Shown piece after piece: positions 10,901 through 42,500 of a DNA stretch of 64,000 nt. The notes under the pieces are model-generated. The model worked only from the letters and a program-made list of their open reading frames with translations. It ran no database searches and was not told where the DNA came from. A program made the position numbers and the translations under genes. Numbering within the stretch: the stretch's first letter is position 1; the number at the start of each line of letters is the position of its first letter. This stretch comes from Owenia fusiformis (taxonomy: Eukaryota > Annelida > Polychaeta > Sabellida > Oweniidae): positions 17,115,375 through 17,179,374 of the forward strand of contig CAIIXF020000005.1 in NCBI GenBank assembly GCA_903813345.2, written 5' to 3'.

Positions 10901-12062
10901 TTATAATTCTAATCATGGATGGAATACCGGTATAATATATCAAATATATCTACTTTCTATACCCTGAAGAAATTATTTCGATGAGTTTTCACAATATCTC
11001 AAGATTCAATACAATCTAGGCCCTTATAATTACTTAAGTGCCTATCCTGATAAATACTGGAAAGTGTTAAGAAAATCAAAAAATAAAGTTTAAGATATCT
11101 TTAACATAACAATACAAGTTGTGTATTATTCTAATGGACGGAATACAAATCTCTGAAGCAAGACACTTCTACTACATATAAATATATATATCAATATTTT
11201 AAAAAATACAGCACTGTAAATTGTTTTTAACTCTGCTCGATGAAACATCAAGATGGATCACAATCTTCCACTATTAGTTATAAAAAACATCTTAAATACA
11301 ATAATAGCAGACATCTTCAAATTGTTTATATCTTGTCCAATCAACATTCAAATCAATTCATATTTTAGAACATGTGTCCTGACTATAATAAGTTCTTTAT
11401 TTACTGCCGCTAAGGTAATTGCATTTTCTCAAGAGATCCATTGTTTGGATTTGTGTGCTTCCTTGCAATAGGAACTCCATATTGATTCAATAATTTGTCA
11501 TATTTGTTTTTATTGTTATAGCAACGAGCTCAATGTAATTTGCCACTGTTTTGTTGTTGTTACTTGTCCTGGTTATATTCAGATATTATACACTGCTTTT
11601 TGTTGTCATGGTTATTTTAGACTCTCTTTTTTCCCAACAACCTACTGAGTTCAGTCGTTTGTTATGATTATATGTTTGGTTGTTATAGCAACATCTAAGA
11701 GTCCTACACCTCAGGTAAATTTGAAGGTCTCTGGAAAGATAAAACGTATTGTATGAATGTGTATAAAAGACTTTTCTATTTATCTCAACTTATGCATACA
11801 CCCCCTCAAATTAAAAGAAATACCCTTCTGTTCAAGCCTTATTTATGTTTGGAGGTTTCAGAAATTTCTTCAACTTTGTCATAAATTTCAAAACTATTGT
11901 ATTAAAGAAACAAAATGAAGGCTCAAACATTATCAGACTTTAACAGGACATCAAATGAAGATAGACTTCCAGTTGCCAATCTAATGGAGGGGAGTGGGGA
12001 GTGGGGAGGGGAGTGTAAGCTGTATCTACACTCATGACACCACACTTTAGGGTATTTATATT

Positions 12063-12099: not shown

Positions 12100-15000
12100 T
12101 CATTCCTCAATTCTTACTTTCTTTCCTGTGTCTAGTTTGCGGCGTAATTTTTCCTCAAGTCGTTCTTTCTCTATTCTTTTATTGACTTTAAGCTGTCTCT
12201 CTGTTTCATGGTAACCCTTAACAACTTTTACAGCGTCGTTTATCTTCTGGTTTTTCAACTCAGCTTCCTACAAACAAATCACAAGTTGATTAAACATGAA
12301 CATTCAATGAACATGTTCAAGTTATCAATTTGAGATTATTTTCAACCCATGCTTGCACTGAGAGTTGTAATGGTTTAAATGGAAATTCTTTGTGGTAGAA
12401 GTATAGGCTAGTGTTGTGAAGTTAACAAATAAATAAAGTATGGAATTGAAGAAACAATGCACAGAAAGTAAAAATTAAAATGGTGAAGCAAAATTAATTT
12501 AATTTAAAGATTGACGATTTAAATCTTACATTTACATGTACATGTCGTACTCTTCACTTTAAAGAATCTTTCAAACCTGCTTAAAGCATTTCCAGAGTTC
12601 AAACTACAGATGTACAAGAAAATGCCTCCAAAAATGTAAAATTTACATATGGATTTTAGATTTGAAAACACAGATTTAAATCCTATCCAAATGATCCAAA
12701 TAATTTTACCTCAAACTTCCTTCTCTCGGCTTCCTCTTGAGCTTGCATCTCAAGTCTCTCCCTTTCTCTTTTCTTTCTCTCTTTCTCTTCATCAATTATT
12801 TTCTTCTTGTTTAATTTCTCTTGAAGTTTACGGCTCTGACGATCTTTTTCAGATTCCTGTATTTTCTCCAGTCTGGATGTTTGTTTTAAATGTTGGTCTA
12901 TGATTGCCTTTAGGTCAGCTTCTGTAAGTTGCTCCGTCTTCTGCTTCTCATGGATCTCTCTATATAACTGTTTATCCAACTCCTTGAAATAAAAATATTC
13001 CTGATATAAATACTAGAATATAATTTCCAACCCGTAAGCATGTGTGTTATGTATCCATAATAAGTGCTGTCTCTAAGCCCTTACTTGGATTTAAAGTTAC
13101 ATCTAAGTTAGTAGTAAGTGAAACTGCTTTGTACCATCTTTATTGTGGCATCATTTATTAATTTTCAAACATTGGGGCAGGGGGTTAGTGAAATATAGAT
13201 ACTCAATGTACTTATTCCTTCAACTGACAAGGTTTTATAAAGGGAACCATTTTAAATGATATAGGTTGCTAAATTCCAAAATACTACAAATGACATTAAG
13301 GCAAAACAAGGCATTAACATGCAAATTGTTACAAATCTGCCAATTGTTACAGACACCGATCACCAACGGCCACCACAAAAAAGTTGGAGACTATAACAAT
13401 ATGTCACCACTTGATGACATAACTAGGGACACTAACAACCATATAAAGCATTTGAACACCAGACAAAAATTTACAAATCACAATAAAATACTACAGAGAA
13501 TACAACCATGTGTAATTCTTGAACCAAGGTCCTATACCTAGATGATATTAACCTTTTGAATTTAGACCAAATCTGATTGATAACTGGTATGAAAGTTGTC
13601 AGCAATTGTGTATTTTCATATTTACTTACTCTCAAAAATGAGCTAATGTCAGGCATTGTCTAAGCGGTCATAACTGATAAGATTCTACTTCAGAGAGAGC
13701 AAATTACATAGTTCCCATTGTCTTGTCAATTATGAATTGATGATGATATTTATTATCTGTTGTTGGGGTCATTGCTCCTTTGTTTGCAATAAAAACAAGG
13801 CATTATCTTAGAGGTCATGCTATCCTTTTTTCTAACTTTGAAACTTCTATATTGTATAATATTGCAGTCATGACATTTTTTATTTACTTTGTAATTGATA
13901 TACAGGGTGTCTCAAAAAATGTACCCAAAAGTATATCAAGAGCACAGATAAACCGATCAATATTTTCAGACATTTTTTGCATGGTCATATAGCCAAAACA
14001 TGAAAAGTTTTCTCCCCAATACACCATTTTTATTTCAGTCTTGTCTTTTTGATGCTTTAACCCTTTACCTTTTACACCACATAATCGATCTAATCTCATA
14101 TTTCGATGACATTCTGTATCCTTACTGCTACATTGTTCATCACATTTGATAATAATTCCAGTGGAATGTTTTGGATTTCTCTTTGGATGTTGCCCTTAAG
14201 TTGTTCTAGGTCTTTTTGCTTGGAATGAGCATTAAAACACTCCTTCAAATAGCCACAGAGAAAGAGGTTTGAGGATGACGATGGCAGATCAAACACAGAT
14301 AATCAGGTCAATTATCGACAAGGAGTTACCTTACCTTACCAAGGAGTTAGTCAGGCTTGCCTGGAGACCAAATTATATCCAAATGAAAACACAGAGGTCT
14401 CAAATTGATACACACAACAAAAGCTACACTAGAATCCCAACCAATGCAGTTTCTTGAACCTCTGACCTCTCTGTATAAGGGGGCTATTTGAAGGACCATT
14501 TTTATGCTAAACCCAAACTAAGAGACCTAGAACAACTGAAGACCAGCATCCGAACAGAAATCAAAACATTCCACCAGAAATATCAAATGGTATGAACAAT
14601 GTAGTAGTAAGGATGCAGACTGTCATCGAATTATGAGGTTACATTGGATATGTGGTGTAAAAGGTAACGGGTTAAAGTATCAAAAACTGAATTAAAAACT
14701 GTGTATAGGGGAAAAAACGTTCATCTTTTATCTACAAGACCATGCAAAAAATATCTGAAAATATTGATTGGTTTGTCTATGGTGTTGATATACTTTTGGG
14801 TACATTTTTTTGAGACACCCTATATTATGAATGGTGATATCTTTATCACATTGCCACTCATATTATAAATCAAATCAAATAATAGTTCACTATGACAAGG
14901 TTATTTACGAGCATATAGCTCATTGTAATTTTATCTGAATAGAAGTAGAATGTTATTAGTGAGGAATAGAAGAAAATATAACATTCAATTACAAGTTGTT

Positions 15001-18000
15001 CTTGAAGTTGATAATTCAAAAATGTTGCTTTAAGCAGCATAATTTAAGAATGATAAAGAATAAATTGAAGCAATAATTGAACAACCTATTGTTATTTTAT
15101 TGTTGTTTTGGTGTGGCTTGTATGATGTCATCTGAAGTTTGATGTATTGCTTTTATCTTCAAATAGTGAAGAACCCATTCAATATGCTAGGTTTGAGATT
15201 CATGATATTTAAGAAAATTTGAGTGTTTTAGTTGCAAAAGATGAGTATGGTATGGCAAATAAAAAAGGTAAACGATTTGAGACAATTACATCTTTGACCA
15301 TGACCATATTTTGACCATAGATACTACATATTGATTAGTATTATATGTTTTCTTTGACATAAAGGTATCGAAAAATAAAGACATCAATCCAACTCTCAAA
15401 AAACAAATGATTTAGGGTGCCAACCTGACACTTATTTCTACATCATTTCTTTCATCATTTCTGTCAGTACATGTAACTTCTAAAATGGGAAACATCGTTG
15501 AAATATTATAAAAAGAAGAAAAAACATATCCAATGTAATTTTTCCATAGGAAAAACTACAGTATCCATTGTTTTCAGCCTTTATCTTTGTCACCAAAATT
15601 TGCTATGTTTAATGTTTGCCATAAGAGACAGCCACTGTTGCTGTTTTATTTACATTTACAAAACACCTTGTACAACCTTACATTACAAAATGGCACAAAA
15701 AGATATCCATTCATTTTAAAACCATTACATAGGATTTTTCTACAAAATATCAATACAACAGTACCTCTTTCTGTTTCTGTCTTTCCTTTAGTTTCTGCAG
15801 CACATTATCTTTATGCCTCTTCATCTCAGCTTCCTTCCTCTCTCTCATTCGTTGTTGCTCTCTGCGGTACCTCTCTAATAGTTCGTTCATTTCACTTACA
15901 TCCAGGTTGTTGTCAAGTTGTCTAAACTTCAACTCCTTGAAAAGGTCTGTTTCCATTTCTTCCAGCTCCTGAAATCCAAATACATCAACACCTAGTTATT
16001 TTATGGCTAATTTAAAGTCGCTGTACATTACACCAAATTCTAAAGTTAAATACTCCACTCCAGTGTACCAAAATAAAAAAAAGAATCCACACAGTTTGCA
16101 CAAAGTTGATGTACTAATATCCAAATGAAATGCAAGATTGATTTAATGTCTACATAAAAATACTAAATAATGACTATGAGTTGACTGTTACCTGCTTCAA
16201 CTCCTGGTTAGCAAGCTTCACATTGGGATCCTTCTCAACTTCCTCTTTAAAAACAGCATCTGAATCGACTTCATTGTCAGGTTCTGTATCATTGTTGTTG
16301 CTTGATGTACCATCCTGCAGGCATTTTCAATAAACATGTATTCTTGGTTATTCGAACATGACTGTATTCACACCTTCTATAAACTGAAAACAAACTCAAC
16401 ATTTCATCTGGGGTATATTCGCGATGAATACCCCTGGTAATACGTGTAATGTGTGACGTCATAACGGCGGGTCGTAGTAATGGTGGACCATAATGAATAT
16501 TCGAAACATTTTGGTGACTTTTCATGTTCAATCGTTATATGGACCTCAGAGCAGGGGTAATATCGTTGAATACACCCCTTAGGGCTAGGCACAAAAGCTT
16601 TCAAACCCCTCACTCCCTTCAGTCGTTCGGGATACAGAAGACATTTGTGCCTAGCCCTGCGGGGTGTATTCGACAATATTTCCCCTGCTCTTCAGTCTAT
16701 ATTTCTTAATTTAAGATTGAATATGGATTGATTTCCTAGGGATATATGTATTATTGACTGAGAATGATATTAATCATTGGTAACTCTCTATCAAATAAAA
16801 ATGTGCGTGTATGCAAAAAACAAACATATTTGCCACTGTGTACATGTTATGTGTTGTACCTTTCTATTTTTCTCCATCATCCGTTCTTTTTTTGCTTTCA
16901 ATATTTTCATCAGATTTTCCTTCTGTCTATTTCGCTCTTCTTCTTTCCTGTCACGTAATTCATCTGCTTGCTTCAGATGTCTGTTCAGGAGCTCTTTCAT
17001 AGCTTTTTCTGTTGAGTCATTATCTTCATCATCCATATTCGTCTGGACTTCCATAAGAGTTTGAACAAACTTTTCATCCATCTGTTTAACACTGGTATCA
17101 ATTTGTGTGTTTATCTCCTAAATGTAAAATCCAATCATATACAAACACATAAATAAATAGATCCTGACTTTAGGTCCCATTGAATAATTTTTGGAGGGCG
17201 TACCGAAGGATGCCATTTTACTTAGAAATAGCAATAATATAGCACAATTTATCGAGATCTACTTTGATTAAAGCACTCTCTGCAATGGCTATTTCATTCA
17301 TGAATTTTTAGGAATTCTGTTGGAACTTGGAACCCAGTTCTGATCAAATATGAAGTTATTGAAAACGGCGCAGACGGGTTTTACTCCAAAAGATGGTTTT
17401 TCTATTATAACTTTTTTTACAACATTTAAGTAAAATATTCTAAAAAATATCTGGCATAGTCTTAATACTATTAAAAATTTCTATTCATTCATGAATTTTT
17501 AGGAATTCTGTTGGAACTTGGAACCCAGTTCTGATCAAATATGAAGTTATTGAAAATGGCGCAGACGGGTTTTACTCCAAAAGATGGCATGACATGATCA
17601 GAGAAAGGGTAATAAACAGAATTGTTTGATTATGTCAAACCATACTGATGGATGTAAAGATACTGCAATACAAGGGCCGATCAAAATGTTTCTTACCGTT
17701 GGCTCTAGATTTTATAATAAGAGGAGTTGAATGCTCAAACTTTTACATACGACAGGGTAGTAAGTTTGCATGAGACTATCTGAGTTTCATGTAAATTGGT
17801 TCATTGGTAGTGACACAGAGTCAATTCGTATTTTCAATGATTGCATTAGGTGGAGTGGCGTTTTTTATTAAAAATTGTGCTAAGCCGCAGTTTTGGAAAT
17901 TTCTAGCACTAAGTAGTGTCATCTGTCAACAGACTGTAGTTTAACCATGTTTAATTAGTTTTTCTGCTAATATTCATTCTCATTTAAAATATTCATCCCC

Positions 18001-21000
18001 AGTTGCAATGCACTTCCTATATATGCCCACTCGATCCAAAAACACATGTTTAAGGCCTTCGTATGAGAGGTTTGAAACGATGTCGGTAAATTTCCAAGAC
18101 CACAACTCAGCAGATACTTTATATATAACGCTGCTCCACCTAACTTTGTCATTGAAAATACGAATTGACTCTGTGTCACTACCAATGAACCAATTTACAT
18201 GAAACTCGTACAGTTTCAAGCAAACTAACTATCCTGTCTCATATTAAAGTTTGAGCTTCCAACTCCTCTTATTATAAAATTGAGAGCCAACGGAAAGAAA
18301 CTTTTTGATCGGCCCTTGTATAAGTCAATGTATATGATGATGAATGGGATTTTTTGAATTATAGGATACTTGTTTTTAAACCAACCAGACAACAAAATCA
18401 ACATAAACTTTTTGTGTTTTAAGAAACCATTTAGTATATGCTTAGCTACAATAATAAATAAAGAAGAAATATTTACATAAACTTGCCAAAATGAAAGTCT
18501 TGAATACAATTATGATAGATTACACTTTTCACTTTTATACACTTCTAATCTCTAATCCCAATATGATGAAGTAGAATTCTGCTGATTACATTTATTGCCC
18601 GTTTTCAATAACTTCGTATTCGATCGGAAATAGATTCCAACAGAATTCCTACAAATTTATTAATGAAATAGCCATTGCATAGAGTGCTTCATTTTGTCAT
18701 AATCGAAGCAGAACTTGAGTTAAAAAATAAATTGTGCTAAATTATTGCTATTTCTTAGTAAATTGTCATCTTCCAATACATCCCCAAAATTATTCAATAG
18801 CATCCCATGTATGTCACACAACCCTACATCAACTTAAAGAATACAAAAATGAACACTGATTGCACCATTGTATTTTCACAATTATGACAAACAGGCAGTT
18901 TTAATATGTACACGATTCATTTGTACATCTTGGGCAAAATACAAGAATATTTCCTACCTCATTTAATTTATTGATTTTTTCTTGCATCTGGGTGTGGGCA
19001 TCTTTCATGAAAAGCTCAGTTTGGGAGGCTTCTGCATTGTCATGAGGTGGTCCACTCTCATCACCATTATCACCTGCATCATCGGCAGGCATCTCCTCTT
19101 TATCACCATCAAACACATTACCTTCCTGAAGAACATCCTGATGGATGAGTTAAGCAATTGGGTAGAAGGGAATACAGGAAATACTAAATAATTGGTGTGA
19201 TGCCTGAACAGAATAAATTCAGGGAAACACTAAAATTTGTGGATAAAAAGATCTGTTCCTAATTCAAATATCTTTGAATTCAGCATTTTACCATTATAAC
19301 AAGGGATTAAAATGCAAAATGTCACCACCTACCATTTGTTACAGATGCAAAAAGTCAACAGCCAAAGAGCAACCACAGAACACCATCCATAAAAAGTTGG
19401 AGACCATAACAAGATATGGTGGTCATATAAAATCATGTGGTATGTCATACCTTATCAGTAACTTCCCGTCTTCTTGCAAGTATAGCTAGCAGAGATTCAT
19501 CTGCTCTCTGTTTCTCATTGCCACGGATTCTCTTCAATTTCTCCCGTTGTCTCCTTGCGATCTGCATATAGTCCTTCATGTCCTTCTCAGTCATAGAGGA
19601 AATGTTTGTCATAATTTCACTTGTAACTGTGTTCATTAACTCAGCATTTTCTTCATTCTCACTCTCAGAGTCACTAGAACTCTGTAAATAATCAAGAGTC
19701 AAGATCATTAGCATAACATCATGTACCAACTAAGAGAACTAAATATATGTACATCACATAAAATATACATCTTGAGTTAAAATGATGAAATAACAAACAC
19801 ATCGCACAGTGATAAATATCGCACTTTTAGTATCGAAAAATTCAAAATGGCTGCCTGCATGCCCCAAACCTAATCAGATCTTTTGACACTAGTCTGCTCT
19901 TGTGTAAAAAGTTAAACAGGTTAGTGGCCTTGGTTTTCCTGGAATTTTTATGACAAGATTTTATATGGTCCCACCTGGTCACTTGCTTGCCAACCCACCC
20001 AGCAGACGACAACAATATAACGTATAAAAAGCGCAATAAACAACAACATATTAATGCATGTACAACTGCAATACTTTATCACTTCATATACTATCTGTAT
20101 ATAGACCTACCCCAGAATCTGAACTGCAAAAGCTGGTATCTGAGTAATTATCAGACTGAGAGGTGGGTTTCTTTGAGGATTTTGATTGGTTGACACAAGA
20201 GTCAGAATCGTCACTGCTTGAACTGCTGCTGCTCGATGCACTGGACATGTCACTGCTCAATTTGTTATTTTGATTCTGTCGTTGATTAAGTCTTTCTTGG
20301 AGACATCGACGTAACCGTTCACGCTCAGATTGCTGCTGAAGCTGAAGTTTTTCAACTTGCCGTCGGTGTTCATCTAACAGTTTTTTCAGATCTTTTTGGG
20401 ACATATCATCAACCCTCTTCCGGAGTTTGATTGAAAAATCTTTATTGATAGCTTGCATTTCCTGAAATAAGATAATGCAAGTTTTACTGTTTGTAATTCT
20501 AAACATGTTCCCAAAACAGGTGGTGATTAACTGTTTGTGGTAAGCCATGAATACTATATCTAGTATTAGTATATATGTTGTTCTGGTAGCAAAGAAAACA
20601 TTCTTTTGAAGCCAATATTTTGACAAGTCCAATACTGTTGGTAGGAGGCGAGAAATTTAACCATGAGCATTCTGTTCATCTGAGTATTTTGAACATCTTT
20701 TTATCTGAACATCTGAGACTTCTAAGTTTAAATGAACTTACCTTATTGTGTTTGCCCTGGAGGTCTGTCTCAGAGAGTTCTTCATCGATTTCTGTACCAA
20801 TAGATGTCCCACCGATCCCATCAGTACCTGTTGACATAGCAGTGGTTGCAGGCCGATCCATTCCAGTGCTCATGTCTGCTGAACTATCGCCTATGTGTCC
20901 TTCTGTGTTTGTTGCTATGGTAACATGTGTGGGACTATTTCCAATCTAGAGTGTATCAAAACAATCAGTGAATTTCAGAAACCTAAAGGCTATAGTAATT

Positions 21001-24000
21001 TATTAGACTTCTCATTACAAAACTGCCTACCAGTAAAACTGATAAAAATTGAAACAAGGTGATACTATAAATATCACAACTTTTTATTGAAAAATTCAAA
21101 AATAGTCACCAAGTAATACCCAACATGCCCAAAACTGTACCAGATCTTGGCATTTAGGAGTCAGCTCTTGCATCTTATATATTTCTAGTTAAAAAAAATT
21201 AGGATTTCCTTAAATGTTGATGACAATATTTACGTGGTGCCCACCTGGCCACCACTTAGCATCTGGCCACCTTCCTCATACTTCATATTTTTGAGTTTCC
21301 TTTCCATTAGAGACACCTTTTGCATTTATATGTACATCTTTTGCATTTATATGTACATCTTTAGCATTTAGATGCATCTTTTGCATTTATATGTACATCT
21401 TTAGCATTTTTATGTGCATCTTTTGCATTTATATGTACATCTTTTGCATTTATATGTACAGTACATCTGTTGCATTTATATGTACATCTTTTGCATTTAT
21501 ATGTACATCTTTTGCATTTATATGTACAGTACATAATTTGCATTTTATATGTACATCTTATGCATTCTCAGAGAAAAAATATGCAAATTTGGCATTCATC
21601 ATGCATCATTTTTCATTCATCCTTTAGTTTAATGTGTCCTTTTTCTTTTAACATACCTGAGTGTGTTTTATGACAGTGATTTCCTTCTGGATGTTAGATA
21701 AATGGCAAAGGTCACCAAAAACTGTCTCCGAGTCAAACTCATCGCCCATATTACGATCCAGAATTATCTGAGTACATAAATCTTTTTGACTTTCAACCAA
21801 TGCCTGAAAAAGAGAACATCATTATAATTATTCATTAAGCAGACTTTGACTCTCTATGGATAGCCCCCACAAAAAACAACAACATGTGCTTCTTGTGTGT
21901 TTAAAATGAAACCATTTAAACAGTTAAATCAATTTCTAAAATAAAAATATCTGGAAAAACTAAAACTATTGAGACAAAGATTGATTTGAGGCACTGCTGG
22001 TCTGAGGGATGACCATGATGGTAACTAATTTTTCCATTCTCCATATCAAGATCTGATGAAAGCATAGGATTCCTAGATTGTAATAAATGATTGTAATTAT
22101 ACACATTAAAATGGCAGCGTTTTCACTAGAATTGAAAAAGATTACTTTCAAGTTTTGGCCAGATAATTCTAAAATCAAAATTATTATCCTGAAAAAGTCG
22201 AAATAGTCAGAATTGTTGGACTTTTCATAAAATACATATGACATGCAATTATGAGAGCAAAACATATTGTAAAATTGTGACGACTTTTTTCATTGTTGAA
22301 CCTTTAATTCTTAAGTAGGCAAGTAATTGAATTTTCAAGCTATACTAAGGCAGAGTGACCCCATCCTTCAAAATGGATTTTCTACAAGTCTAAAGCTATA
22401 CTAAGGCAGAGTGACCCCATCCTTCAAAATGGATTTTCTACAAGGCTATGTTCATATAACAACAAAGTCTAGGAAGTATAGATTAATGTAGCATACAGAA
22501 ATCAATATAAAAAGCTTTCTATAAAGAGCTTTCTAGGTAAAAGCAATCATGAATAAATGTATTTTATTGGTGCCTTTTGTTCCTCCTTTATATTTCAATC
22601 CTAAATCATTAAAAAATATCAAAGTCAACAATGTTATATTCTACAATTGTTCTATAATAACTTTTTTTTTCTGGGAAATAAACTATACAATATACTACAA
22701 CTGATAATCAAAAATCCCATATCAGATCCTGTATCAGGCAAAATCCTGTATCAGATCCTGTACTAGATCACGTATCAGCCAAAATCCCATATAAGTTCCA
22801 GTATCAGAACTATTCCTGGGGATTTCTCTAGATTTTTACATTTTTCGTTTTATTTCAAATATTATAAATAAAAGTGGAAAATTTATGTGATAAATCAAAT
22901 TGTATCATTTTATTTTTATGTCACCATCATCAGGTGATGACAAATCAAACTTGACAATGAACTTGAAAAATGGAATCAATAGGTCATTGATGGTTGTGAT
23001 GGAATATGAATTTTTTTCTCGAGAAAATATGATATTAGTCTCAGAAAATATTATATTGAGACTTGGCTGTCGCTTTTGTCAATATTATATTTTCCTTGGC
23101 CAATATTATATTTTCCCTCAGAATGAAATTCATTTTACATCCCTCATTTTAAATAACCTCTCTAATATATATATTTCATTTTACTGAGGTGAATCTGTGC
23201 ATTTTTCGCAAGATGATATTCTACAAGCCTGAAGTTCTTTTTGATTACCGTCAAGCTGAACTATCCTCAATAATTATTAATTCACATGAGTAAACATTGA
23301 TGACTCTAGTACAAATACATTTAATTTACAGGTTAAAACCCCTATTTTCATTACATATTTACCTTATTAATTGAAATAACTAAAATTTATACTGAACATA
23401 TTCTACTCATTTTATTTTTACAAATTAAAAATTGAATGTTGTGATTCAGTTCAATTCTACTAAAATGGCTAAAATGACGTTGACAGACAACACAAAATAG
23501 GCACAAAGCAAAGTCACATACGACAAATGAGTTATGAAAAATATGGATCCAATCCAACTTTTACATGAAACCAACCCAACCCACTTGATCTGACCCATAT
23601 TTTCCATCCATATCAAATTTTAATTATCATTGTTTAATTATTTACACCTATGAAAAATAAAACATACCTCTTCAAGTTCTTTAATTTTCTTCCTCAGAGC
23701 TTCATTTTCTTGTATTGCCTTGTCATTAGTGATCTTGACACTGTCTTCGTTGGCCATACTCTCCCTCGGAGAAAAATGTTTTCCACTAGGGTGTTTCCCA
23801 AATTGTGGTGGACCTGCTATAAGTTGACCAGTCCCTATTGTGGCATTAGGTTGAGATGGAAAGGCATCTTGGCCATTATAAATGTCTGAAGTAGGCATGG
23901 TGGTTTCAATTGCACTTTTGGAATCTCTTGTGGCAAGTGACTTATTCGAAGGCACGTCATCATCACTTTTGTTTGATTTATTTACAGTGGGGTTGAGATT

Positions 24001-25272
24001 GTTTTTCTGAGAGCTATTCATACTCCGGTAATCCTGTTGAACATTTTGAGTTTCATTTGCAGGTCCTCCTCTACCGTCAAAGTTATAACTAAATGAGTTC
24101 TTTGCAAGATTTATTCTATTAAGGCTATCATCTGTCATATTATACCTATTAGGTGGCATATTGTTTGGCATATCTAGAATCTCTTGATCTTTTTTGATAT
24201 AACGGCCAGTGTCTGGTTTGTAATATGCTCCAGATGTTTCACTTTGGGGATTTTGAGGTGGGGGATAATGTGTTGTTCTTGAGATCCACTTATCACCGTC
24301 AAGTCTGTTACTGTCTATAGAGCTCGATTCATTTTGGCGATGTTTCTCTTGTTGTGTAATATAACGTCCAGTGTCTGATTTGTAATAATCTCCAGATGTT
24401 CCACTTTTGGGATTTTGAGGTGGGGGATAGTGTGTTGTTCTTGAGATCCATTTATCTTCATCCATTTTGTTATTGCCTGATCTATTTTCTTGTTGGTTCT
24501 CTTGGGTTATGTATCTACCAGTGTCCAGTTGGTTTAAAACAACACCATCATTTTTAGGATTTTGAGGTGCTTCATGATGAGTGATTTTTGAACTCCATTT
24601 ATCATTATCAAATGTTTGCTTATCTGTTGATGGAACACCATTGGGGATGTTAGTTCTATCTTTAAGTCCCTTGTTGTGATTAATACGAGGAGAATTATGT
24701 TGAGTGTCATTTGATAATTTGTCCTCGTGCACAATGAAGCCATTTGGGTTTCTTTTATTATTGCTTTGTGCATTTGGGTTTTCATCAATAGCGTGAACCT
24801 TATTAGTTGGTGATTTCTTGGGTTTGGGAATCTTTTTGCTGGATTTATTTTTCTTCCGTCCTCCACAGCCTGGGTCTGAATCACTGTCTGAGTAGGCAGT
24901 GTTTATCTCTCCATTGTTCATAGGACTTTTAGCACTCTGACCAGTTCTTTTTTTAGTCCTGGACTTATTTCTTCGACCTCCACAACCAGGATCCGAGTCA
25001 CTCTCAACATCATTTACAACATCAGCTCTATCATTAATTTGATTTCTCCTTCCTCGAGATGATTTTTTATTCTTTCTGCGTTTTCTTCCCCCACACCCAG
25101 GGTCATCATCGCTATCATAATCACCAAGTTCAACTTGCCGATGTTGTGTGAATCTTCCGCCACATCCTCCCCCACCACTGACAAATCCCCCACACCCACT
25201 GACATTACCACTATCAGTAATCACAAGTCGACGTTTCCACCCTGGTACACAGCAGCAACAGGAATTTCCCAT
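12100..25272 (-). CDS. Acylated MGNSCCCC protein with modular charged helices
   Basis: Eleven coding exons (transcript order): 25272-23668, 21803-21657, 20945-20742, 20461-20111, 19681-19451, 19137-18958, 17117-16860, 16314-16192, 15968-15765, 12982-12710, 12267-12100. Each is a multiple of 3 with GT-AG borders, so all introns are phase 0 and the protein is 1247 aa. The N-terminus MGNSCCCC fits N-myristoylation plus palmitoylation. DPGCGGRK/R motifs recur at about residues 57, 94 and 133 among basic stretches. A ~50-aa repeat (DKW..SRTTHYPPPQNP...DTGRYI) occurs three times at 222-360. Residues 653-1192 carry five helical modules (S/T-E-x-D-L-K-x-LL-x-x-H-x-x-Q...E-R-x-R...L-x-x-R-x-K) in exons 4, 5, 7, 9 and 10, separated by acidic Ser-rich linkers (SSASSSSSSSSDDSDS). 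An acceptor at 25289-25290 implies an upstream 5' UTR exon, plausibly ending at 27631. The last exon contains GTAAGA just before its TGA, so an extra 3' exon cannot be excluded. I recognise no family; membrane scaffold is inference. Confidence 0.85.
12268..12709 (-). other. Last intron of the coiled-coil gene
   Basis: GT-AG intron between exons 10 and 11, AT-rich, with no further coding signal on either strand. Confidence 0.6.
13307..13420 (-). repeat. GTCACCAC-family repeat, short form
   Basis: Short ~115-bp form lacking the AAGGTC-rich interior. It shares AAGTTGGAGACTATAACAA and atgtcaccac...gtgacat-type ends with the other copies. It lies in the intron between exons 9 and 10 of the coiled-coil gene. 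Confidence 0.7.
13903..14821. mobile_element. mariner-like foldback element (two 3' halves head to head)
   Basis: The termini CAGGGTGTCTCAAAAAATGT and the reverse complement ending GAGACACCCT are flanked by TA. The two arms (13903-about 14300 and about 14470-14821) are inverted copies. Each contains the same degraded IS630/Tc1-mariner transposase C-terminus: on the minus strand FLCGYLKECFNAH and DLEQLKGNIQREIQNIP, on the plus strand GYLKDHFYAK and [13 protein letters not shown]. The C-termini face outward in both arms. Stops interrupt the plus-strand copy, so the element cannot encode an active transposase. A third fragment of the same arm is at 52927-53222. Confidence 0.8.
14822..15764. other. 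Intron remainder; nothing further seen
   Basis: AT-rich intron of the coiled-coil gene between the mariner foldback and exon 9. ORFs such as 15498-15719 lack family features. Confidence 0.5.
17170..18812. mobile_element. Large inverted-repeat element filling an intron
   Basis: The left arm (about 17170-17360, containing agaaatagcaataatatagc) is the diverged reverse complement of the right arm (about 18597-18812, containing gctatttcttag). Part of the left arm (tcattcatgaatttttagga onward) is tandemly repeated at about 17305 and 17485. A mariner-type foldback (17671-18318) is nested in the middle. A related fragment lies near 38240-38390. The whole intron between exons 6 and 7 of the coiled-coil gene is essentially this nest. 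Confidence 0.65.
17671..18318. mobile_element. mariner-like foldback, TA-flanked
   Basis: The TIRs CAAGGGCCGATCAAAA (left) and TTTTTGATCGGCCCTTG (right) are bordered by TA at 17669-17670 and 18319-18320. The outer ~200 bp of both sides are inverted copies (gttcattggtagtgacacag on the left, reverse complement on the right). On the minus strand 18219-17980 is open and ends RKCIATGDEYFK, resembling the end of mariner transposases (KCI...GDYFE). No catalytic region is seen. Confidence 0.7.
19301..19440 (-). repeat. GTCACCAC-family repeat, diverged short form
   Basis: It shares atgcaaaatgtcaccaccta, ttgttacagatgc and aaaaagttggagaccataac with the other copies. It abuts exon 5 of the coiled-coil gene (donor at 19450-19449). 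Confidence 0.65.
19795..20000. repeat. Dispersed repeat B, copy 1
   Basis: Similar in order and spacing to 21050-21255 (gataaatatc; gaaaaattcaaaa; catgcccaaa; agatctt; ccacctggtcac). An inverse copy is near 7290-7430 and a possible one near 38440-38700. No coding content. Confidence 0.6.
21050..21255. repeat. Dispersed repeat B, copy 2
   Basis: Direct-orientation diverged copy of 19795-20000, located in the intron between exons 2 and 3 of the coiled-coil gene. Confidence 0.6.
21316..21560. repeat. 21-bp tandem repeat (TTTGCATTTATATGTACATC)
   Basis: About eleven imperfect units of ttttgcatttatatgtacat. The unit length is a multiple of 3, so several frames stay open on both strands; these ORFs are not genes. 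Confidence 0.85.
22337..22447. repeat. 56-bp direct duplication
   Basis: aagctatactaaggcagagt starts at 22337 and again at 22393, with near-identical continuation through ccttcaaaatggattttcta. Degenerate atcctgtatcag repeats follow at 22690-22805. The rest of the 21804-23667 intron shows no gene. Confidence 0.8.
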
Positions 25273-25758: not shown

Positions 25759-25772
25759 GTTACCATAGCAAC
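25759..25772. promoter_or_regulatory. Candidate RFX X-box upstream of coiled-coil gene
   Basis: GTTACCATAGCAAC fits the RFX X-box consensus (RYYNYYATRRNRAC) at every position. It lies 487 bp upstream of the MGNSCCCC start codon. X-boxes mark many cilia genes. A single motif in AT-rich DNA can occur by chance, so function is inference. Confidence 0.4.
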
Positions 25773-33500: not shown

Positions 33501-36500
33501 TTTCATTTTCATACTTTAGCCTATTTATCATTCCATTTACTTTTGTACTCTGATTCAAACATTAAGACCTTATGTTGAGGAAAATCCTCAGATACTTTTA
33601 TAACAGGCAATGCTTTGATGATTTTTGGTGGTCAAAACTACTAATCACCCATCACCAAAGAAAATTCTAAACAAATTATATGCTGGAGGGGCTCCATGTT
33701 GTGCATACTGTGTCTAAACAAAGTGAAATTAGACTCTATAGAAAATACAAATTTGACATCCTCTCAGCAATCAATTCATTGTTAACATTTTTGAAAATTC
33801 AGTTTATTATTTGTTTCCAGTTTTCGTACATATTATATGAATGTTAAAAGAGATGTAAAAAAATCTAATGGAATTAATTTGAAATTAAAGCGAAAAGAGT
33901 GGTCAATTAATAAAATATAATATTTATATAAAACCAAAAAGTTTACTTTGATATATGGCTAATAACGCACACAAAGTACTGCACAGTTGTATTGTATTTT
34001 CAGTCGAGCCCATACTATAGTGTGTTTAAACTTCAAACAAAACAGAATTAGAGAAAAGGTGACAAAATTTTGTTCAATAAATCTAGTAGATTTAGCTGGG
34101 AGTGAAAATCAACGTCAGACGCAAGCTGAGGGTCAACGATTTACAGAAGCAAAATATATCAACCTGTCGCTCTCAACGCTTGGTAGAGTCATTGAAGATT
34201 TGGTGAAGAAAAAGAAATACATTCCATTCAGTGATTCTGTATTGACGAGGCTACTGAAAAATGCTCTCGGGGGAAACAGCAAAACTACTATGATTGCCGC
34301 CATAAGTCCTGATGCAGAGAACTATGACCAGACATTGTCCACCTTACGATATGGTATGTTAACACACAATTTCTTTATTAATATATAACTCCTAGCACAA
34401 TACCTCTTCAGGAGCTGTTAGTTTTTGATAGATTTTCAAAAATAAATTTCTGATTATAACATGTTGGGAAATGGGGTTGTTTTGGGTTAGAGTTGTGTTG
34501 GGTATGAGTTGTGTTGGGTAAGAGTTGTGTTGGGTATGAGTTGTGTTGGGTAAGAATTGTGTTTGGTATGAGTTGTGTTGGGTAAGAGTTGTGTTTGGTA
34601 TGAGTTGTGTCGGGTACGAGTTTTGTTGGGTATGAGTTGTGTTGGGTATGAGTTGTGTTGGGTAAGAATTGTGTTGGGTATGAGTTGTGTTGGGTAAGAG
34701 TTGTGTTGGGTATGAGTTGTGTTGGGTAAGAGTTTTGTTGGGTATGAGTTGTGTTTGGTAAGAGTTGTGTTGTGTAAGAGTTTTGTTTGGTATGAGTTGT
34801 GTTGGGTAAGAGTTGTGTTTGGTATGAGTTGTGTTGGGTAAGAATTGTGTTTGGTATGAGTTGTGTTGGGTAAGAGTTGTGTTTGGTATGAGTTGTGTTG
34901 GGTAAGAGTTGTGTTTGATACGAGTTGTGTTGGGTAAGAGTTGTGTTGGGTAAGAGTTGTGTTTGGTATGAGTTGTGTTGGGTACGTGTTATATTGGGTA
35001 TGAGTTGTGTTGGGTATGAGTTGTGTTGGGTACAAGTTGTGTTGGGTACAAGTTGTGTTGGGTATGAGTTGTGTTGCATATGAGTTGTGTTGGGTACAAG
35101 TTGTGTTGGGTATGAGTTGTGTTTTTGGTACAAGTTCTCTTGGGTATGAGTTGTGTTGGGTACAAGTTGTGTTAGGTACAAGTTGTGTTGGGTCTGAGTT
35201 GTGTTGGGTCTGAGATGTCCTGGGCATTGTTTATTATGATATTCCTTCAGTTTCAATCCTCCATTATTCAAACTAAAATACCCTGGATTAGGATAGTAAA
35301 AACATATTACTATTTACCATTTTTCTACTGAATATATGACAGGTCTCACTCTCCATTATTGCTGTATTTGCTTGAAATGTATCTCTTGTTTTGTGTAGCT
35401 GATAGGGCAAAATCCATAAAGACATCAGCTAAAGTGAATGAGTCTGAGACGAGCAAACTGATACAGGAGTTGATACATGAGAAGGAGCGGCTCCTTAAGG
35501 AACTGAGCATGATGAAGTCAGGAAATAAGGAGAGTGGTGGATACACAGAGGAAGGTTAGTGGGAAGTTCATTGAATATACAGGGTGTCCATAAAGTCTGT
35601 TTATAATTAAAAATACAAAGTCTGTGTAAAGTGTAAAAAGACTTTTATGTACCCTGTATTTTGAGCAAACTTTTGTCGCTAACTTATGTTTTAAATATGA
35701 GTATTTTACATGTGGCATTTTACTTTTTTCTTTTGTAAATTATTTTTTATTTGGAAACTACACTTTTACAACAGTGGATTTGCCACACACTGAAATTTTC
35801 ATTGCCTAGTTAATTGTCTTGTTATATGGCTGTAGATATTCAAAAGATCAAACAGGAGAAGGAGGAAGAACTCAAGACATATAAATCAGATTTGGAAAAG
35901 TCATGGGCGGAGAAGTTGGAACAAGCAAGAAAAGATATGGAGGTACAGTATAAAACTATATGCATGGCATGTCAGAGATCTGCTCAGAATTATTCTCAGC
36001 TGAGGGCATCTTATATTTTATTCTAAATCGTGTGTTGTGATTTGAATAGGTAACCATCTATTAATTGTTGCCTTGTTTTACCAAATGGAATCAATTGTGT
36101 GCAATAGACATCTTGATTTTTCAAAGTTTGTATACACATTGATACAATTGGCTAGTTCTCTTGTCAATTGTGCTAATCAATTTTTACAGTTTTCTCTGAA
36201 ATTTTATCTCAATACGATATACTTATCACTTTAGGTTGTCTGATGTGGAAATCTGTGATGGATCTTTTTTTGAAGAGAGAGGCCGTGGGCAAATCTTTAT
36301 TGAATCAATGGAATGTTGATTCATTAAACTGGAAACTCCAAAATGTATTTTACATTTGAGGTTCAAATATCTTGTAATGTTACATTAATGTTTGAATATT
36401 TTCATATTCTATTACTCTTCAGCTTTAAATATTTTCTTATTTTTTCAGGTGCAAATTAAAGAACAGAAGAAAGAAGAAGAAGATGTAAAGAAATATCCAC

Positions 36501-39500: not shown

Positions 39501-42500
39501 TTCTCAAGGTCGAAAAAGGTCAAAAAGGTCTGTTTTCAACTTGCTTCAAATTGACTAAAAAAAATTTCAAAATCATCTATGTGTTCTCAGAAATTCAAAT
39601 CTGACTTTAGATTTGACATTTGACCTTCAATGACCTTCTCAAAGTCAAAAAAGGTCAAAAAGGTCTTTTTTCAACTTGCTTCAAATTGACTAAATTTTTT
39701 TTTCAAAATCATCTACATGTTCTCAGAAATTCAAATCTGACTTTAGATTTGACATTTGACCTTTAATGACCTTCTCAAGGTCAAAAAAGGTCAAAAAGGT
39801 CTGTTTTCAACTTGCTTCAAATTGACTAAAAAAATTTTTCAAAATCATCTACGTGTTCTCAGAAATTCAAATCTGACTTTAGATTTGACTTAAGATTTGA
39901 CATTTGACCTTCAATGACCTTCTCAAAGTCAAAAAGGTCAAAAAGGTCTTTTTTCAACTTGCTTCAAATTGACAAAAATTTTTTTTCAAAATCATCTACA
40001 TGTTCTCAGAAATTCAAATCTGACTTTAGATTTGACATTTGACCTTCAATGACCTTCTCAATGTCAAAAAAGGTCAAAAAGGTATTTTTTCATCTTGCTT
40101 CAAATTGACTAAATTTTTTTTCAAAATCATCTACATGTTCTCAGAAATTCAAATCTGACTTAAGATTTGACTTTAGATTTGACATTTGACCTTCAATGAC
40201 CTTCTCAAGGTCAAAAAAGGTCAAAAAGGTCTTTTTTCAACTTGCTTCAAATTGACTAATTTTTTTTTCAAAATCATCTACATCTTTTCAGAAGTTCAAA
40301 TTTGACTTTACAAGTTCTCAGAAATTCAAATCTGACTTAAGTTTGAACTCATAATATTGTGAGCAACTAGGTGGTGACATTTTGTCATGTTAATGCCTTG
40401 TTAAATTTGTTCTATAATTTATCTGTCGAGTTTACAATTTTTCTTTAAAATTGGAGATATGGGAGAGTCTAACCTCGCATCTTTGTCTACCTAAGATCCA
40501 GTGCTTGCAGTTTCTTGAACTGGAATAAGAAGATGTTGTAAAAACAAACAGATATTAACATATGATAGTTTTATAATCATATTCCATGTGCATTATCTAG
40601 ATGTAATGTTAAACCAGATGTCTTGTCATGTGCATGCTCAATAATATTTTTCTCATTATCATTCCCACATATGTCTTTTTATTATTATTTATTTGATAAA
40701 ATGTGTATAATATGACATTTAAGAGATGATAAAGAAGTGACTAGACTTGTGGATGGTTCAGGTTTTATTACCAATAGAACATTTAGAAGGGCTTTTATAG
40801 CTGATGAATGTAATACCTAGCCTTTAATATCATATTGTAATTGGGCCCCTCCAAATTAAATATTCTTTTTGTGTCAGTTATATTTTTCCAAAGTTTTTTT
40901 TTCTTTTCAGGAGTTTTCCCTTTTCTTTCATTTTGATGCACAGTTTGTCAATTAAAGAGTATAAAAGAATAAAATAAACTTGGTTACTTTTCATATTTTT
41001 AAAAATGTATCCTATTAAACTGATAATTAACTTTTTGTGGCCTTATGTGCTATAGGACACTGTGTGGAGGCAGTTATTATTTGTTAAAGACACTGGAAAG
41101 ACAGAACAGCTAATCACATGTAATAAATTAAGTTAACGTCGCATGAATTGAGGCTACATTTAGTATAAATCTGAAAAGTTTATTTCCTTTTTTTGCATCA
41201 ACAATTTGAAAGCATATTGGAATCTATGAAAGACATGCAAAGAAAAGAACACTTCCGAATACTGACTTTATGGAAAAGAATTAAATAAGCATCGAACGAG
41301 CAGGAAGTTGAGTACTGCAGGGTCTTTCAATATACATTTTAAACCAGGATTTATAAATAAAATCTGATGGAGATATATTTTATGAGTTAAGAATGGAAAA
41401 TGTAACCTTCAATGCAACTTTCCACATTACACAACTTGAGGACTTTTTGCGATATCGTATAGCGATGAAGCTGTGGCTGGTGTCAATGCCGATATTCATG
41501 ATCATAGGCTTCTTGACCAATAGCTTGAACATCCTCATCCTAAGACGGAGATGCTTCTTCGGGAATTCAACGAGCTCAATCTTGGTGATGTTAAGCATGT
41601 CAGATATCGTCAATCTCATGATTGGTCCATTAAGGTTCATCATATTGTTGACATCAGGAAAGGACTTAACCGAAATTTCAAACGCTTACTGCAAGGTTTA
41701 TCGATTTTTTAACTACTTTTTCACTGATTTCTCAGTATGGTTAGTTATTATCTTGGCTTTGGAGAGAGCATTTGCAGTTGGGATACCTCACAAAGTGCGT
41801 GTCTATTTCTCTGTCAGAAATGTGTATATATTGGCGTCTGCGATTGCACTTTTCTTGGCTTCAATAAACATTCACTTTTTCATCACTTATGAAGTAACGA
41901 GTGGATCCAACAGCACCAGTTTGTTGTCCTGTACAGTCGGCAACCCAGCATACTACAAATTTGCTCTTATCATATTTCCGTGGATCGATTTTTGTGTTTT
42001 TTCCCTCGTACCGATTGGGATGGTAACCGGATGTAACTTATTCATCGTTGTGAAGCTACTGATGTCCCGTTACAAGCAGAATATATTGACCCAGAATGGA
42101 AGTGCAGTCACTCAAAATCAACCCAAGTTAAAATCCATGACAATAATCATGTTTATGATAAGTGGGTTCCTTGTCATTGCTGTAGTACCAACTGCCATTC
42201 ATGCTTTTGTTTATCCTGAGTGGATTCGTAAACAGAAGGAGGGTGACATTGAGGCAGAGGTGGATTTGGTAGTATTTGCTGTATATATTGTTATTGGAAT
42301 ATATGCGAATTGTTGTATCAACTTTTTTCTATATTCTGCCTCTAACAAAAGATTCAGGAATGAATTGGTAAGGATAATTAAGCGACAGAATCAGGTTGGT
42401 CCCGCATCATCTAACACATAGATTCACTCTGACACAAAGATTATTTATAATTAGTGTTTCTAAAATAAGGTCCCACATGGAGGGTGAAAATTCCGATCAA

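Follow-up and report, generated by a model that had tools for sequence, protein, structure and literature searches.

The stretch of the Owenia fusiformis genome analysed here, 64,000 nucleotides of contig CAIIXF020000005.1 that we call the window, carries on its minus strand a gene of 11 exons for a protein that starts with MGNSCCCC and holds five helical modules in its C-terminal part. The gene lies at 17.13-17.14 Mb of the contig, which is numbered C5 in our genome searches, and its features are collected in Table 1. When the exons were re-derived from the DNA, ten introns were obtained, all of them GT-AG and all in phase 0, every exon had a length divisible by three, and the joined frame ran over 1247 residues to a single stop. 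The exon structure put forward in the first-pass annotation of this DNA was thereby reproduced, and the exons form one coherent gene model. The G+C content of the exons is 0.353-0.466 and that of the introns 0.317, and G+C differs between codon positions in most exons, with a weak difference in exons 4 and 5. The start ATG has A at -3 and G at +4, which is a good Kozak context. A splice-acceptor-like site lies 16 nt upstream of it, and an out-of-frame ATG stands between the two. At the other end, a phase-0 donor at 12117 within the stop exon could be joined to an alternative last exon, which would give a protein of 1250 residues. Although the gene was predicted from sequence alone, has introns of up to 2.8 kb and may have this second 3' end, it is very unlikely that exons of more than one gene were mis-joined: all of them share one strand, phase 0 and GT-AG borders, most show the codon-position difference, and the last three modules are collinear with those of a single paralogous gene on contig C1.

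The modules, named W4, W5, W7, W9 and W10 after the exons that carry them, have in common a 42-residue core that aligns without gaps, one core to an exon, and acidic or Ser-rich linkers separate some of them. Each module was scored with a profile made from the other four, and the C-terminal part (595 residues), shuffled 1000 times, served as control. W4 (23.8 bits), W5 (20.9 bits), W7 (34.5 bits) and W10 (35.1 bits) exceeded all shuffles, the best of which lay between 8.8 and 10.1 bits according to the profile used, while W9 was marginal, its 8.2 bits being equalled by one shuffle in 1000. With this reservation for W9, the five modules are real and stand where they had been placed before. Their proposed helical nature agrees with an AlphaFold2 model of exon 10 (five window rows), in which a helix at 2-16 is followed by a break ending at a Ser/Thr cap and by a long helix at 21-90 (mean pLDDT 93.9, pTM 0.56). 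The comparison of folds that had been recommended as a check did not place the protein, as Foldseek with the exon-10 model returned no fold relative in the PDB (best E 2.9). Pfam was the domain database searched, and this genome and the PDB were the targets of the homology searches. Eight single open reading frames and the whole protein gave only below-cut-off matches in Pfam (coiled-coil families, OCRE) at a limit of E 10, though the filters of HMMER drop most matches above about 0.1. Sequence searches of the PDB returned no useful relative of the modules (best E 0.18, with the A2 profile), and phmmer with exon 10 found nothing there at E 0.1.

A genome search with the C-terminal part gave nine matches, namely eight exons of the gene itself and one weak match on contig C1 (E 0.05); the 535-residue exon 1 matched only itself. 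The gene on C1 (C1:53180677-53187741, plus strand) is a paralog. Like the window protein, it has an MG start that fits the N-myristoylation pattern (MGSGAS), no transmembrane helix, a low-complexity middle and collinear C-terminal modules. Unlike the window gene, it has 14 exons, 1049 residues and three modules (P11, P12 and P13), only 10 of its 13 introns are in phase 0, and its N-terminal part cannot be aligned. Its MG start, too, follows a splice-acceptor-like site, at a distance of 5 nt. By BLASTP (E 1e-19), window residues 911-1190 with W7, W9 and W10 align with paralog residues 796-1032 in the same order, and outside the modules only short chance-level matches were among the matches listed. 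The nearest paralog cores of W9 and W10 are their positional counterparts P12 and P13, while the W7 core alone is not closest to P11 and is placed on it by BLASTP through its flank. With the window profile, P11, P12 and P13 each scored above all 2000 shuffles; with the paralog profile the same was true of W5, W7 and W10, and W4 and W9 were each reached by two shuffles. As W7, W9 and W10 are collinear with the three modules of the paralog, part of the array predates the split of the two genes. The earlier idea that the array grew by symmetric exon duplication therefore stands only in part.

Beyond these two genes, the module leads to EVC2 (limbin). A genome search with the Pfam family EVC2_like (PF12297, cut-off 25 bits) pointed to a single C5 exon, at 3.4466 Mb, with a match short of this cut-off (23.8 bits, E 0.0037), and the tail joined by hand after the transmembrane helix gave an EVC2_like match of 83 bits (E 2.7e-23). 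EVC2 of this genome is thus located at about C5:3.437-3.455 Mb on the plus strand. Its exons carry the same ungapped 42-residue helical core, repeated in the cytoplasmic part, and four of these cores (Vc, Vd, Vg and Vi) were used for comparison. In hhalign, the eight window and paralog cores matched the four EVC2 cores over 42 of 42 columns without a gap (probability 95.3, E 2.4e-8). The statement of the first-pass annotation that no family with this combination was known is not supported for the module, which has its match in the EVC2 tail and recurs at five loci of the genome besides the window gene.

Since the EVC2 cores had been aligned by eye beforehand, which favours the hhalign match and has to be held against it, a blind scan of open reading frames is the fairer test. 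A profile made from EVC2 alone, run over 1551 window reading frames of at least 25 residues, recovered exon 10 (E 3.6e-7) and exon 4 (E 0.0021), and no further frame was found at E≤1. In shuffle tests with 2000 shuffles per module, the same profile separated W4, W7, W10 and P13 (reached by none) and nearly separated P11 (3 of 2000). Two of the five window modules are accordingly found blind, and W7 also stands above its shuffles. These comparisons support a relationship to EVC2 directly for three of the five modules, and for W5 and W9 indirectly, by their resemblance to the other modules of the array and to those of the paralog.

Two consensus searches showed where else in the genome the pattern occurs. 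Only the best candidates were scored, so that all counts are lower bounds, and the new loci are the informative part of each search because matches to the loci that supplied the query are expected. With E 5 as the limit, the 67-residue consensus of window and paralog gave at least 10 matches, comprising the five window modules, the three paralog modules, one EVC2 exon and one place on contig C10. The consensus of EVC2 and C10 gave at least 14, four each in C10, EVC2 and a gene on contig C7 (best 3.9e-5); of the remaining two, one lies upstream of EVC2 on the minus strand (E 0.008) and the other in the window gene (E 0.93). In both searches, the matches listed all fall in six loci: the window gene, its paralog, EVC2, an EVC-like gene and the genes on C10 and C7. 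Sixteen cores from five loci were then compared by position, picked by profile match or by eye, with the EVC-like cores excluded and two C7 cores left out as short or off-register. Ser or Thr stands at position 2 in 13 of the 16, Asp or Glu at 5 in 13, Leu or Ile at 9 in 15, Leu, Ile or Met at 10 in all, His or Tyr at 13 in 14, Leu at 20 in 12, Glu at 27 in 11, Lys or Arg at 28 in 13 and Arg at 30 in nine, while position 35 is hydrophobic and position 39 is Leu in every core.

The EVC-like gene (C5:3.415-3.434 Mb, minus strand; L034-L036) lies head-to-head with EVC2, which runs on the plus strand from about C5:3.4367 Mb. Read with its exons unjoined, it opens with a short segment and a helix of hydrophobic residues (hydropathy 2.44 over 19 residues), and module-like exons follow on the same strand. 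These modules score modestly: the EVC2 profile reaches 3.8e-5 at best, and the window-plus-paralog profile detects none of them at E 1. The gene is called EVC-like for its position and topology only. According to PMC10413113, the human genes EVC and EVC2 stand back to back, and their products are single-pass proteins that heterodimerise in cilia; the Owenia pair has the arrangement and topology given there. A survey of two annelids reports EVC2, IQCE and EFCAB7 but not EVC (PMC9695228). The EVC-like gene shares with the window protein a predicted membrane anchor at the N-terminus, with module-like exons after it; unlike in the window protein, the anchor is a transmembrane helix in place of a lipid motif, and the modules match weakly. 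The region of this gene also contains a long minisatellite (L034:5366-9192; C5:3.417-3.421 Mb), the minus-strand frame of which is a repeated VDPYMHTIHIYECI. The genes on C10 (19.060-19.080 Mb; L030, L031) and C7 (22.766-22.780 Mb; L032, L033), neither modelled in full, are both large and share with the window gene several modules of the same pattern. C10 differs from the window protein by Cys-rich Ephrin_rec_like repeats and a hydrophobic stretch (by eye) ahead of a long tail of EVC2-type modules, and C7 by long repeats, DPxTGxxxPI-type segments, which precede its EVC2-type modules. Four pieces of the C7 gene gave nothing above cut-off in Pfam.

A number of results weigh against common descent with EVC2 and would suit convergence instead, with the window protein being a generic coiled coil rich in Glu, Lys and Arg, an unrelated structural protein of the trichohyalin type. 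Neither the window protein (Pfam, limit E 10) nor its paralog matches PF12297, the composition is charged and of low complexity, and the identity between window and EVC2 modules is low (mean 0.23, maximum 0.36). The EVC2 profile fails on W5 (2.0 bits, reached by 480 of 2000 shuffles) and W9 (5.9 bits, 228 of 2000) and on paralog module P12 (57 of 2000). The reverse tests are mixed: with the window-only profile one of the four EVC2 cores stands apart, Vg (0 of 2000 shuffles), while Vc (7), Vd (63) and Vi (66) do not; with the window-plus-paralog profile Vc and Vi join Vg at 0, and only Vd (23 of 2000) stays within reach of the shuffles. When the 56-kb EVC/EVC2 locus was scanned blind with the window-plus-paralog profile, one exon only was recovered (L010:870-1127, E 1.3e-4) and none of the EVC-like gene; the profile also finds two good exons on C10 and one on C7. 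Some of the genome-wide matches are weak taken alone (EVC2 E 0.26, C10 E 0.28). Charged helices, moreover, are alike by composition, as the best PDB match of the window-plus-paralog profile illustrates (7rdr, E 0.0013). This entry was rejected as a relative and its match treated as composition, because it covers 13 positions and no single stretch passes. Convergence is nonetheless unlikely in our view: the 42-residue register is kept without gaps and with fixed positions in 16 cores of five loci, exons 10 and 4 were recovered blind by the EVC2-only profile, the genome-wide consensus matches listed are confined to six loci, and the EVC2-module profile reached no better than E 0.56 among 177635 PDB sequences.

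The relationship with EVC2 concerns the row of cytoplasmic modules and not the whole protein. EVC2 has, in addition, a signal-peptide-like start, an ectodomain, a transmembrane helix (by eye) and a match to PF12297, whereas the window protein has no transmembrane helix (maximum Kyte-Doolittle hydropathy 0.72 over 19 residues) and thus is not a single-pass protein of this kind. It was rejected as EVC2 proper for the lack of both the Pfam match and the helix. Nor does it correspond to EVC, which has an N-terminal transmembrane helix and lies beside EVC2, at about 3.44 Mb as against 17.13-17.14 Mb for the window gene.

In place of a helix, the window protein has an N-terminus that fits the N-myristoylation pattern, a start of MG-x-x-x-[STAGCN] (PROSITE PS00008), with adjoining cysteines as possible palmitoylation sites. 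The predicted lipidation agrees with the first-pass annotation, which had called this N-terminus suited to both modifications. If the protein were soluble instead, MGNSCCCC and the GCGG motifs would form a Cys-rich metal-binding or cross-linked region and no lipid anchor. The further cysteines of the repeated DPGCGG motifs would fit this, as would Cys at residue 6, since Ser or Thr is usually preferred at this position of myristoylation signals. We consider a soluble protein improbable, as a hydrophobic stretch precedes the modules in EVC2, the EVC-like gene and C10 (by eye, and scored for the EVC-like gene only) and as the MGSGAS start of the paralog is followed by no Cys in the first 40 residues; it is therefore the MG start that the two N-termini have in common. 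Because these relatives have a hydrophobic stretch, while the window protein, like its paralog, has an MG start and no hydrophobic helix, a lipid anchor may have taken the place of the transmembrane helix. The module-bearing gene on C7, for which no anchor was assigned, is a point against this substitution.

With regards to cilia, the region upstream of the gene offers a weak lead. The word GTTGCTATGGTAAC found there resembles the X-box of RFX factors, and a second X-box-like copy lies inside exon 3. The window contains three X-box words within two mismatches compared with 0.14 expected, and none of 100 shuffles had as many. Genome-wide, GTTGCYATGGYAAC has 4473 strand matches compared with 5 for its reversed control; this abundance perhaps reflects RFX sites, or is partly that of a dispersed repeat. 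The intended positive control, an 8-kb stretch with the starts of EVC and EVC2, holds no X-box at up to two mismatches, and the word upstream of the window gene therefore does not discriminate. An X-box word does occur deeper in the region of the EVC-like gene (L034:9440), and a looser one on C10. A first, loose scan was not significant, the score of the window gene being reached by 12 of 60 random sequences and those of two other regions by 55 and 34 of 60.

Table 1. Features of the window gene and its surroundings, in window coordinates.
Feature	Position	Strand	Remarks
Whole gene model	12100..25272	(-)	11 exons, 1247 residues, MGNSCCCC ... KKVRIEE; all exons 3n, GT-AG, phase 0
Exon 1	23668..25272	(-)	535 residues; N-terminus of lipid-anchor type (predicted), low-complexity region
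MGNSCCCC	25249..25272	(-)	fits N-myristoylation pattern (pattern test); adjacent cysteines possible palmitoylation sites
Three DPGCGGR repeats, exon 1	24856..25104	(-)	25104-25084, 24993-24973, 24876-24856
Three DKW...DTGRYI repeats, exon 1	24196..24603	(-)	24603-24508, 24456-24358, 24294-24196
Exon 2	21657..21803	(-)	49 residues
Exon 3	20742..20945	(-)	68 residues
Exon 4	20111..20461	(-)	117 residues; first module and Ser-rich linker
W4 core	20279..20404	(-)	residues 672-713
Exon 5	19451..19681	(-)	77 residues; second module
W5 core	19594-19469	(-)	residues 799-840
Exon 6	18958..19137	(-)	60 residues; acidic linker
Exon 7	16860..17117	(-)	86 residues; third module
W7 core	17015-16890	(-)	residues 941-982
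Exon 8	16192..16314	(-)	41 residues; acidic linker
Exon 9	15765..15968	(-)	68 residues; fourth module
W9 core	15905-15780	(-)	residues 1055-1096; lowest leave-one-out score
Exon 10	12710..12982	(-)	91 residues; fifth module
W10 core	12928-12803	(-)	residues 1120-1161; best match to EVC2 profile
Exon 11	12100..12267	(-)	55 residues and stop; charged, helix-like
Possible alternative last exon	11704..11730	(-)	RPSNLPEV*; sequence signals
X-box-like word GTTGCTATGGTAAC	25759..25772	(-)	about 490 bp upstream of ATG; RFX type; weak lead

Elsewhere in the window, on the plus strand, lie a kinesin motor-domain exon (33966-34385; PF00225, E 1.6e-43) and an open frame for a G protein-coupled receptor of the rhodopsin type (41357-42418; PF00001, E 3.8e-13). 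Just downstream of the kinesin exon, a 16-bp unit is repeated in tandem about 46 times (34476-35218).

Literature searches found MGNSCCCC in no paper, no paper that joins EVC2/limbin, coiled-coil and invertebrate, none on a myristoylated coiled-coil-repeat uncharacterized protein of lophotrochozoa, and no matching paper on EVC/EVC2 paralogy. The term 'limbin-like' led only to a turkey transcriptome paper.

Taken as a whole, the window gene probably encodes a lipid-anchored relative of the helical tail of EVC and EVC2, a membrane-tethered scaffold that would work like the EVC tail but without a transmembrane helix; we hold this with some confidence, and not with certainty. Myristate and palmitate at MGNSCCCC would hold a cytoplasmic protein at the membrane. 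The anchor would be followed by a long low-complexity region and then by the C-terminal row of five EVC2-type modules, each formed by a short helix, a break capped at S/T-x-x-D/E and a long charged helix. The most likely partners of the modules, as coiled coils, would be one another or the tails of membrane proteins that carry such modules. With a lipid in the role of the transmembrane helix, they would form a self-pairing or cross-pairing scaffold lining the cytoplasmic side of the membrane. A site at the base of the cilium, with binding to EVC/EVC2, EFCAB7 or IQCE as in EvC-zone proteins, is speculative. The window gene and its C1 paralog might even constitute a third, lipid-anchored class of EVC-module proteins, joined through their modules to the tails of EVC and EVC2 at the ciliary membrane as an undescribed, Hedgehog-relevant part of the EvC complex, but we regard this extension as quite doubtful. 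The stability, targeting and function of the EvC complex are called poorly understood in PMC10413113.

The Ellis-van Creveld syndrome proteins EVC and EVC2 would thus gain an unusual, formerly unrecognised cousin with a lipid anchor. Our comparison suggests that EVC2 has, within its cytoplasmic part, a series of 42-residue modules that can be defined, and that an N-terminal lipid motif is a further means by which animals fix arrays of this kind to membranes. It yields a motif that can be searched for, candidate interactors of EVC and EVC2, and a placement for a protein that is blank in Pfam.

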